Assembly: GCA_902812455.1 (NCBI GenBank)
Contig: CADDZH010000146.1
Location: 1 to 9,238, forward strand
Origin: Chloroflexota bacterium
GTDB taxonomy: Bacteria > Chloroflexota > Ktedonobacteria > Ktedonobacterales > Ktedonobacteraceae
DNA: 9,238 bases
Reading direction: 5' to 3'
Position numbers and translations under genes: made by a program. Shown here in pieces: positions 2,036 through 4,474 of this stretch; position 1 is the first letter of the stretch; each line of letters begins with the position of its first letter. Below the pieces are notes generated by a model. That model saw only the letters and a list, made by a program, of their open reading frames with translations, was not told the origin of the DNA and searched no databases.

Positions 2036-2899
2036 TCAGAATTCTCGCTTCTCGTCTTCGTGCTGGAACGTGATATTGAAAGCCGGCCAGGGAGCATGTT
2101 CTGGCTGGGTATAGTTGATGATGCGGTAAAGCGAGCCTGCTCCATCTACTCGTAAGGTTGCACCGGAAATAAAGGACGCAGCAGGTGAGAGCAGGAAGAT
2201 CACTGCGGCAGCAACTTCACTTTCAGTGCCCATACGCCGCGCAGGGACTTCCAGGGCTGATGCTTGCAGCATGGCCTGGGTTTCCTGCGGGTAGGTATGA
2301 ATCCCGCTAGAGTTGATAAGCCCGGGGGCGACGGCATTAACGCGAATGCCAAATTGCGCCCATTCCAGGGCCAGGGATTGGGTGAGATTCACTACTCCTG
2401 CGCGAGCAGCGCCGCTATGGGCCAGGTTTGGAAAGCCACGCCACATGTCCATCACAATATTTACGATGCTTCCACCATGATCGCGCATCCAGTGCTGCAT
2501 AGCTGCGCGCGACATGTAGAACGTCCCGGTCAGGTTGGTCTCGATCACCGCGTGCCAGCCTTTGGCCGAGATGTTCTCTGCCGATGAGAAGAACTGCCCG
2601 CCGGCATTATTGACTAAGCCATCCAGGCGACCAAAACGCTCAAGCGCCGCCTGGATGGTGGCTATGACCTGCTCCTCGTTACGGATGTTGCAAAGGAGAG
2701 CTGCTGCCTGGCCGCCGAAGGCTTCGATGTCTGCACATGTTTTTTCAAGGTGCTGCATTGAACGAGAGCAGAGCACGACTCTAGCGCCAAGAAAAGCGAG
2801 TTCACGTGCAATAGCCCGCCCGATCCCTGTGCCTCCTCCGCTGACCAGGAATACTTGCTCGTCGAACAACCCACGGCGAAAAATACTCTGTTGTGGCAT
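2036..2899 (-). CDS. SDR-family oxidoreductase, PECR/dienoyl-CoA-reductase-like
   Basis: This is a 287-residue short-chain dehydrogenase/reductase. Visible are the cofactor glycine motif GGGTGIG near residue 21, an Arg-containing CSRS loop after the second strand suggesting NADP(H), NNAGG near residue 97, and the late motif HSGAARAGV before LALEW. This segment and the C-terminal LLSPAASFISG closely resemble peroxisomal trans-2-enoyl-CoA reductase (PECR) and citronellol-dehydrogenase-like bacterial proteins, so an acyl-CoA or terpenoid enoyl/alcohol substrate is likely. The classical YxxxK Tyr and Lys align to Ser and Arg. The PECR alternative YNLTK a few residues later is VNLTQ here. The catalytic mechanism is therefore not obvious from the motif. 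The start is supported by AAAGGA about 7 nt upstream. The upstream region is separated from its likely promoter by an inserted repeat element. It is divergent from a KASIII-like gene, and both could act on acyl thioesters, but a shared pathway is inference. Confidence 0.87.
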   Translation of the reverse strand: MPQQSIFRRGLFDEQVFLVSGGGTGIGRAIARELAFLGARVVLCSRSMQHLEKTCADIEAFGGQAAALLCNIRNEEQVIATIQAALERFGRLDGLVNNAGGQFFSSAENISAKGWHAVIETNLTGTFYMSRAAMQHWMRDHGGSIVNIVMDMWRGFPNLAHSGAARAGVVNLTQSLALEWAQFGIRVNAVAPGLINSSGIHTYPQETQAMLQASALEVPARRMGTESEVAAAVIFLLSPAASFISGATLRVDGAGSLYRIINYTQPEHAPWPAFNITFQHEDEKREF

Positions 2900-2929
2900 G
2901 GCGCTATCCTTTCTCTGCTCTATGTTTTT

Positions 2930-3029
2930 GGGTCTCCATCCTTTAGGGTGATCGACGAGAATGTGCCGATAAATCGGGGCTGGCCGCGATAAATCGGGCC
3001 CTACAGTTCACCCGCAAGGATGGAGAGCC
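2930..3029. mobile_element. MITE-like non-coding element, 100 bp
   Basis: The two ends are 22-bp inverted repeats (2930-2951 and 3008-3029) that match at 19 positions, mismatching only at terminal position 3 and positions 15-16. Read inward, the right end starts GGCTCTCCATCC and the left end GGGTCTCCATCC. The element has no coding capacity, so it would need a transposase supplied in trans. Ends beginning GGCTCT together with an 8-bp AT-rich target duplication are features of ISL3-family insertion sequences, so an ISL3 transposase is the likeliest mobiliser (inference). It sits 30 nt upstream of the SDR start, leaving only that gene's ribosome binding site between, and just before the -35 box of the divergent fabH-like gene. 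Confidence 0.75.
2967..2998. repeat. Tandem pair of CGATAAATCGGG inside the MITE
   Basis: CGATAAATCGGG occurs at 2967-2978 and 2987-2998, a period of 20 bp. Each copy carries the small palindrome CGAT-AA-ATCG, so each can form a hairpin or bind a dimer. The pair lies in the interior of the MITE-like element and may be part of what defines that repeat family. Confidence 0.7.
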
Positions 3030-3035
3030 ATGTTT

Positions 3036-3064
3036 TTTAGAACCTTGTTGGGTGAGATGAACAA
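3036..3064 (-). promoter_or_regulatory. Candidate (displaced) promoter of the SDR gene
   Basis: On the minus strand, TTGTTC (3064-3059) and TCTAAA (3041-3036) are separated by exactly 17 nt. Transcription would begin about at the right end of the MITE-like element, so the element would become part of the SDR 5' untranslated region. It overlaps the candidate promoter of the divergent fabH-like gene. Confidence 0.35.
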
Positions 3065-3073
3065 TGCTATTAT
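3045..3073 (+). promoter_or_regulatory. Candidate sigma-70 promoter of the fabH-like gene
   Basis: TTGTTG (3045-3050) and TATTAT (3068-3073) are separated by 17 nt. The predicted start near 3080 would give a leader of about 140 nt before the ATG at 3221. The -35 box lies 7 nt from the MITE target duplication, so the element borders this promoter. Confidence 0.6.
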
Positions 3074-3133
3074 TTCATCTAGAAGCTACCTGTGTAAATC
3101 ATATACCAGCATGGGCTTCTACCAAAAATTGGG

Positions 3134-3164
3134 AGCCAGCAACATCGTTGAGGCGATGCTGGCT
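3134..3164 (+). other. Hairpin in the fabH-like leader
   Basis: AGCCAGC (3134-3140) pairs with GCTGGCT (3158-3164), and the inner ATCG (3144-3147) pairs with CGAT (3154-3157). This is an 11-bp stem with a 3-nt bulge and a TTGAGG loop. It lies in the predicted 5' untranslated region about 55 nt before the start codon. No T-tract follows, so it is not a terminator. No known riboswitch was recognised in the rest of 3074-3220. Confidence 0.45.
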
Positions 3165-3220
3165 ATCGCCCTGGTTCTCAGCCTGGTGGAACCCTGGCAT
3201 GTTAAAAAAAGGATCTTTCT

Positions 3221-4474
3221 ATGGCACAGAGGCGTGCAGAGCAGTGGCCTGACTACACCTATATCGTACCCCAGATTTACACAAAAGCCCAGGTACGCCT
3301 GACCGGGCTGGGTTGTTATGTCCCGGCAGGTATTATCACCAATGAGTTTTACGCCTATGTGACTGCGCGCCTGGGTGAGCCGCGCAGCGTGGAAGAACTG
3401 GATCGCAGTTCTGGCTTGAGCGAACGCCGTGTACGTGCCTCGACACTGGAGCTTTGCCGCAAAGTAGCGGGAAAAGATGCTCCTGGCCTCATCGACAACC
3501 CACGTGCTCCGAGGCATGAGTCATTGATCGATATGGCCGTGAATGCAGCCAGGCGTGCGCTAGCAAGCGCGGATCGCGAACCCTCCGAAGTTGACGCCGT
3601 TATCGGCATCTCCTCTTCCGATAACTATGGCTTTCCAACCGTTGCCAGTCTCGTACAATTCCGCCTGGGCATGAGGCCTGTGCGAGCAATCATGTTGAAA
3701 GGCGCCTGCGCTTCCCAAACGGAAGCATTCCAGGTAGCCGCGGAAATGCTAACTGCCAGCTCGACGAAGCTTGTGTTGATCGTCGCGACCGAGGGGCTGC
3801 TGCCTAACGTTATGCATATCCTTGACTGGCGTCTCAGTTCGCTTTTTGGCGAAGGCGCTGGTGCTTTTCTCCTGGAGCGCGGGGGCGACGATGACGATAT
3901 CTATGTGATCAATGGCTATAACGCGGCGCTAGCGCCTACTCTGCATGGCCAGACACTCCTGCGCAAGGATGTCGTCGAAGCAGCCGAAGTCGATATGAAC
4001 ATCCTGAAGCTCTATAATGAAGGAAGAGGCGCAGAGGTCAATAAGGTTTTGTCGCAAGACCTGGCGGGCTATGCCAAAATGAACGGGAAAGATGTGTTCC
4101 GTATTGCGCCGCGTGCGATGGCCGAATGTATTGATGCCTTGTGCCGCCATGCAGAGCTAAACCCTGAGCAATTGAGCTATATTATACCGCACCAGGCCAA
4201 TTCGCGCATTACGCACCGCCTGGGAGAAGTGCTGATCCGCGAACAAGGTTGGCCCTCCTCAACGATGGAGAAACTTGTTGATGAATTCCGCTATTATGGA
4301 AATCTCTCCAATATCAGTATCGCTACTGCTCTGGTTGAACTGTTGCGCAAAGGGCGGCTCCATGAGGGGCAGTGGATGGCAGTTGCGGCTGTTGGCGCCG
4401 GTCTGCATTATGGAGGTTACCTCTTACGCTTTCATGAGTTTAAGAATCCGGGCGCGATCATAGTCTCTATGTGA
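3221..4474 (+). CDS. Beta-ketoacyl-ACP synthase III family protein (FabH-like)
   Basis: This 417-residue thiolase-fold condensing enzyme resembles FabH. The full catalytic triad is visible: Cys163 in KGACASQ, His324 in IIPHQAN and Asn361 in YYGNLSN. The oxyanion/structural segments SSLFGEGAGAFLLE (206-219) and a C-terminal GAGLHYGG (392-399) are also present. Such enzymes condense an acyl-CoA starter with malonyl-ACP, or act as acyl transferases in specialised pathways. It is about 90 residues longer than housekeeping FabH (roughly 315-330), with an N-terminal stretch of about 23 residues before the first strand and longer segments around 48-105 and 240-290. No fab genes or acyl carrier protein adjoin, so a lipid-modifying or specialised-metabolite role is as likely as bulk fatty-acid initiation. 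The start is supported by AAAGGA 8 nt upstream. Confidence 0.87.
   Translation: MAQRRAEQWPDYTYIVPQIYTKAQVRLTGLGCYVPAGIITNEFYAYVTARLGEPRSVEELDRSSGLSERRVRASTLELCRKVAGKDAPGLIDNPRAPRHESLIDMAVNAARRALASADREPSEVDAVIGISSSDNYGFPTVASLVQFRLGMRPVRAIMLKGACASQTEAFQVAAEMLTASSTKLVLIVATEGLLPNVMHILDWRLSSLFGEGAGAFLLERGGDDDDIYVINGYNAALAPTLHGQTLLRKDVVEAAEVDMNILKLYNEGRGAEVNKVLSQDLAGYAKMNGKDVFRIAPRAMAECIDALCRHAELNPEQLSYIIPHQANSRITHRLGEVLIREQGWPSSTMEKLVDEFRYYGNLSNISIATALVELLRKGRLHEGQWMAVAAVGAGLHYGGYLLRFHEFKNPGAIIVSM

Follow-up and report, generated by a model that had tools for sequence, protein, structure and literature searches.

The window, by which we mean the whole stretch of 9,238 nucleotides that was analysed and that forms one contig, carries in this order a tricorn-like reading frame and a gene for an SDR oxidoreductase, both on the minus strand, a short element bounded by repeats, a fabH-like gene on the plus strand, and genes for an FKBP-type isomerase and a luciferase-like monooxygenase (Table 1). 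The element is flanked by the minus-strand SDR gene and the plus-strand fabH-like gene and thus lies between divergent genes, as a first, sequence-only reading of the window had placed it. The tricorn-like frame (2-2035, 678 codons) runs off the contig; judged by eye from its translation it is tricorn-protease/TolB-like, and it comes after the SDR gene in the same orientation. It probably makes up a two-gene unit with the SDR gene, with the element in front. A plus-strand frame of 90 codons (3030-3302), which takes its ATG from the right target duplication and overlaps fabH out of frame, gave no Pfam match and is probably spurious.

Among the best 120 of 765 matches, relatives of the FabH-like protein reach identities of up to 77%, the closest ranging from 72 to 77%. 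Most of these matches are nameless; the closest named one is a protein of a Ktedonobacteraceae MAG (75%), and the other readable organism names are from Ktedonobacteraceae too. Most likely the host belongs to the Ktedonobacteraceae (Chloroflexota). No FabH was confirmed in viral contigs, and the 216 plasmid records matched by FabH all stay below 60% identity.

Table 1. Features of the element and its surroundings (positions in the window).
Feature	Position	Strand	Remarks
SDR oxidoreductase gene	2036-2899	-	start codon 22 bp from left target duplication
Left target duplication copy ATGTTTTT, 8 bp	2922-2929
Left terminal inverted repeat GGGTCTCCATCCTTTAGGGTGA	2930-2951	+	19/22 identical to right arm; ISL3 end-profile score 7.14
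Left spacer, 12 bp	2952-2963
Two-hairpin unit, GTAG-led, REP-like, 41 bp	2964-3004	-	38/41 bases shared with viral contig L017 2507-2547
Second palindrome CCGAT-TT-ATCGG, untagged	2966-2977	-	from fold of unit; direct repeat CGATAAATCGGG
First palindrome GGCC-CGAT/ATCG-c-GGCC	2982-3000	-	from fold of unit; directly 3' of GTAG tag (3001-3004)
Right spacer, 3 bp	3005-3007
Right terminal inverted repeat, minus strand GGCTCTCCATCCTTGCGGGTGA	3008-3029	-	inverted match to left arm; ISL3 end-profile score 9.48
Right target duplication copy ATGTTTTT, 8 bp	3030-3037
Sigma-70-like promoter match TTTACA-18-AATAAT	3069-3098	-	10/12, TG before second hexamer; consensus match only
fabH-like (ketoacyl-ACP synthase III) gene	3221-4474	+	far side of element

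The element itself (2930-3029) had been described as a compact MITE of exactly 100 bp with 22-bp inverted ends matching at 19 positions, set between perfect 8-bp duplications, and length, arms and duplication are all confirmed. It is non-coding, its longest open stretch comprising 28 codons, and leaves no space for a transposase. Being short and non-coding, with terminal inverted repeats and an exact copy of ATGTTTTT on both sides as target-site duplication, it has these structural features of a MITE. The window was scanned for inverted pairs with 22-bp arms, at least 19 positions matching, at an element length of 60-400 bp. Two matches resulted, the second being the element displaced outward by a single base. 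Only the unshifted pair has identical flanking 8-mers, and 30 dinucleotide shuffles of the window yielded no such inverted pair. When up to three mismatches are allowed, the end consensus occurs in the window only at the two ends of the element (0.01 occurrences expected). The direct repeat covers 8 bp precisely and the likeness stops sharply on either side of it; at a given place, chance would produce a perfect 8-bp direct repeat immediately outside the two ends with a probability of about 1.6e-5. A third ATGTTTTT in the window is a single stray occurrence at 2737, within the SDR gene. The fold of the element is stronger than that of shuffled sequences (z -5.6 and -4.6). A transposon-type insertion with an 8-bp target duplication is supported.

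To place the ends, a 24-position profile was built from eleven ISL3 insertion sequences of other genomes. Matches to ISL3 transposases were present in 43 of 200, 48 of 199 and 31 of 149 genomes from the phyla of a Methylocapsa, a Planctomycetaceae and an Enterococcus genome, respectively, and 90 loci, 30 per genome set, were examined. Eleven of these possess an inverted pair of at least 15/24 around the gene together with a perfect 8-bp repeat, and 79 are without clear ends; a looser first pass had given pairs at 27 of 60 loci, many by chance. The eleven elements (L022, L025, L027, L028, L050, L052, L054, L058, L061, L068 and L076), all with exact 8-bp duplications, share the consensus GGCTCTTC...GTGGGT. 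Because they were picked for their 8-bp repeats, the length of the duplication is no independent test in this set. Transposase matches per genome numbered 13, of equal score, in G189, 11 in G433 and 12 in G394.

The window ends, GGGTCTCCATCCTTTAGGGTGATC and GGCTCTCCATCCTTGCGGGTGAAC, are inverted copies of each other, hence their profile scores (Table 1) are not independent. Both are within the leave-one-out range of the 22 ISL3 ends (2.15-22.06), though low in it, as 18 of the 22 exceed 9.48. Random 24-mers reach the two scores in 80 and 29 of 300,000 cases (about 3e-4 and 1e-4), and among the 18,430 24-mers of the window 7 and 3 reach 7.14 and 9.48, the ends themselves included. Published ISL3 ends from outside the profile score 15.3 and 14.6 (ISArsp7) and 3.5 and 1.4 (ISPst2), and five published ends of other families (IS30, IS481, ISNCY and two of Tn3) score -8.5 to -25.7. 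The ends of the element follow the pattern GG[G/C]TCT...GGGTGA. Its duplication is A+T at 7 of 8 positions, compared with 4-8 of 8 in the eleven ISL3 elements. Both the ends and the 8-bp duplication, often AT-rich in this family, agree with an ISL3-mobilised element. The earlier attribution to ISL3 on the basis of the ends and the AT-rich 8-bp duplications is upheld by these scores, low as they are, and agrees both with the published ISL3 ends and with the ISL3-type MITE of Microcystis discussed below. Given a transposon-type insertion, the ISL3 family is very probably the one responsible.

Duplications of 8 bp are also made by IS6 and IS256. The element could have been moved by another DDE family with duplications of this length, IS1595, IS6 and IS256 among them, and its likeness to ISL3 would then be coincidental; the weakness of its ends relative to most ISL3 ends would fit this, and an IS1595-linked MITE with 8-bp repeats has been tabulated (PMC3852290). 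However, the outer GG[GC]TCT and inner G-GTG blocks stand at the ISL3 consensus positions free of gaps, and L068 has GGGTG at the identical positions. Two controls, both weak, were made: 6 of 30 IS1595 loci gave doubtful end pairs, perhaps not the true ends, whose ISL3 profile scores are between -11 and -23, and ends were recovered at none of 30 IS6 loci. We regard mobilisation by one of these other families as unlikely.

Elements of the kind proposed here, ISL3-type MITEs, are already published, and the element is a further one. A MITE of Microcystis aeruginosa PCC 7806 is 187 bp long, duplicates 8 bp and has ends that agree with the GGCTCTTCG found in ISL3 elements; two strains harbour 31 and 33 identical copies, two insertions being present in one strain only (PMC11448079). 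Both elements have 8-bp duplications, ISL3 ends of the GGCTCT type and a stem-loop, lack a transposase, and are found between genes, the Microcystis copies mainly so. In contrast, the present element is known from one copy in another phylum, is 100 bp long, has 22-bp matched ends instead of 9 and carries a GTAG-led hairpin core. The MITE linked to ISMac21 in Methanosarcina acetivorans, with an ISL3 element as its partner, is likewise small and has 22-bp inverted ends, but it is 179 bp long, is present in 6 copies with 7-bp direct repeats and resides in an archaeal host (PMC3852290). ISArsp7, an ISL3 element of Arthrobacter plasmids with the ends GGCTCTTCGCG...GGTGAAT (PMC6305408), resembles the element in its 24-bp ends, GGCTCTTC...GGTGAAT, and in its 8-bp repeat, and differs in being 1,451 bp long with a transposase gene of its own.

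A part of the element which the sequence-only reading overlooked is the hairpin core at 2964-3004, which is also present, without ISL3 ends, in the viral contig IMGVR_UViG_3300044684_000582 (L017). On the minus strand, from 3004 to 2964, it consists of GTAG, a 19-nt palindrome and then the second palindrome. GTAG REPs are defined by an unpaired GTAG tag followed by a short small-loop stem (PMC3733652), and here GTAG is unpaired in the fold and stands directly before such a stem, with a second palindrome nearby. The core differs from GTAG REPs in that two copies of the unit were found, the second palindrome is untagged and no RAYT was seen among the window proteins; of the GTAG REPs, which comprise 24 families, the defining form was compared. 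RAYT tyrosine transposases have been proposed as the enzymes that mobilise GTAG REPs (PMC3733652). The eight window proteins scanned are of other kinds or without match. From its form, the core is likely a member of the REPs, and we refer to it as a REP-like GTAG unit.

The match in L017 has an E value of 1.2e-12 in the record, which corresponds to about 4e-6 when multiplied by 2.9 million contigs. Of the 20 bases on each side of the core, only 7 and 4 are shared between the window and L017. Within L017 2300-3002 no ISL3-like inverted ends surround the unit; the sole inverted pair in this region (16/20) is formed by the unit's own first palindrome and a palindrome about 120 bp further on. A related inverted palindrome is located at L017 2630-2651. 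A portal-like gene (586-1176) is found at a distance of about 1.3 kb from the unit; its product matches one phage record, from a Microcystis phage, at 36% identity, which does not tell the host. L017 was the only contig returned by three pattern scans for the core. As GTAGGG opened one of the patterns, it is in part due to the query that the L017 match starts at GTAG, while the second palindrome and the upstream loss of likeness are independent of that pattern. The exact core was not found in viral contigs, and the core had no match among phages. With two mismatches allowed, the first half of the unit occurs in none of 299 genomes of the G002 phylum and in 2 of 294 genomes of the G005 phylum, there at 11 places, none of which has an intact GTAG. 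In total two copies of the unit are at hand, those of the window and of L017.

These properties bring up a second alternative, namely a REP-derived palindrome cluster in which a GTAG REP doublet sits within a longer palindrome, forms one large hairpin and acts at the RNA level, on mRNA stability or termination, the 8-bp repeat being due to chance or secondary. It would account for the GTAG-led doublet and the strong fold, and GTAG-15 dimers of A. variabilis, inserted in long palindromes, are a precedent for REPs within larger inverted repeats (PMC3733652). A nested palindrome within an inverted-repeat unit also forms a family in G359, a genome from the phylum of G005. Against this stand the exact 8-bp repeat abutting both ends, with the low chance probability given above, and the fit of the ends to ISL3, and we consider such a cluster quite improbable.

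The G359 family itself (loci L179-L208) comprises about 40 copies of a unit GGGGGTCAGAC...GTCTGACTCCCC (41 matches, one of them short; 40 of 241 candidates scored). Both end motifs are present at 25 of 30 loci, and 24 of these span 62-67 bp. The nested palindrome varies between copies on both arms, whereas at their outer ends the units agree with GGGGWSAS, the motif known from TIRYT repeats (PMC3733652). The idea that GATTTATC palindromes make up one widespread family was rejected, GATTTATC being present in 8 of 25 G359 copies. Because the inner palindrome varies within this family, we treat the GATTTATC likeness as presumptive convergence.

Outside the host genome, no further copy of the 100-bp element was found by exact patterns or blastn in the genome contigs, viral contigs, plasmids and phages searched. 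The exact pattern GGSTCTCCATCCTTNNNGGTGA occurs in 8 stretches of genome contigs (84,980 species) and 5 of viral contigs. A second end was present downstream in none of the 13 (best 7/22 mismatches; 3 kb searched, or 1.2-2.8 kb for 5 of them), and the 8 genome stretches belong to other phyla; therefore these stretches look like chance. Exact patterns for both ends gave no match in viral contigs; such patterns miss diverged copies. Short partial matches of the element in 6 plasmid records (E 1-4) and in one phage record (34 bp, E 0.008) were likewise judged to be chance and not copies. The first 8,000 bases of the window match 6 plasmid records, none of which covers the element, and the translated frames of the element used as query gave one candidate and no match. 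As to a partner enzyme, no ISL3 gene bounded by the 22-bp ends of the element was seen among the loci collected, which are from phyla other than Chloroflexota, and Ktedonobacteria are absent from the few names shown for the best 120 of 265 matches in an ISL3 profile search of the protein database. Transposition in trans, the partner enzyme and other copies are what we infer.

With regard to the neighbouring genes, a promoter scan of 2700-3400 gave three sigma-70-like matches, 0.6 being expected, and two of them share the AATAAT of 3069-3098. The match at 3098-3069 faces the SDR gene from beyond the element. Judged from this one consensus promoter match and one fold, the element is most likely part of the SDR 5' leader, with the promoter on one side of it and the ribosome-binding site on the other. 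In the fold of this putative leader the element forms a closed hairpin, and the mean unpaired value of the Shine-Dalgarno region is 0.59 with and without it. On the minus strand the hairpin lacks a following U tract and should therefore not stop transcription of the SDR gene. Insertion into the divergent promoter region had been thought to make a regulatory effect likely; such an effect is plausible, but it is not indicated, the Shine-Dalgarno sequence being equally open in both folds.

Read along the plus strand, the hairpin leads into ATGTTTTTTA, by eye a terminator-like U tract contributed by the T-rich duplication, and this, together with the intergenic position before a gene and the stable fold, would suit a conserved regulatory stem-loop of the locus (operator, riboswitch or terminator) without any insertion; this can hardly be maintained, however, as it leaves the direct repeat without explanation, no Rfam family reaches its gathering score in the window, a terminator scan limited to loops of 3-8 did not list the element, and there is no gene seen for a terminator to end, because the SDR gene and the further frame to the left are both on the minus strand.

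We therefore return to the ISL3 family and propose, with good though not full confidence, that the element is a non-autonomous, MITE-like mini-transposon mobilised by ISL3, which was built on or has gained a REP-like unit and was inserted in the probable SDR leader. A DDE transposase of the ISL3 family, supplied from another place in the genome, would recognise the two ends and insert the element at an AT-rich site, whereby 8 bp would be duplicated. The interior of the element is mainly the GTAG-led double hairpin, a REP-like unit which it probably either acquired or arose around, as this hairpin also occurs without ISL3 ends in one viral contig. The insertion would add a self-contained stable hairpin to the SDR leader and leave the start site exposed. 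More tentatively, and with some doubt on our side, two mobility systems may be combined in the element: an ISL3-type MITE would bear a GTAG REP doublet with a mobility of its own, and spread would occur by DDE and HUH routes.

Ktedonobacter racemifer has 601 transposase genes (PMC3236041), and among the matches listed in full-text searching we found no report on MITEs in Ktedonobacteria. A clean ISL3-type MITE in this group extends a kind of element which Cyanobacteria and Archaea are reported to have. To a specialist, the REP-like core would be the feature to follow up: if it is a separate mobile unit, it would offer a testable case of a short repeat spread by the ends of another element. Should the mosaic be true, one repeat would spread by both a double-strand DDE and a single-strand HUH route, and ISL3 ends could bring a REP to other sites, the cargo being an RNA-active hairpin.
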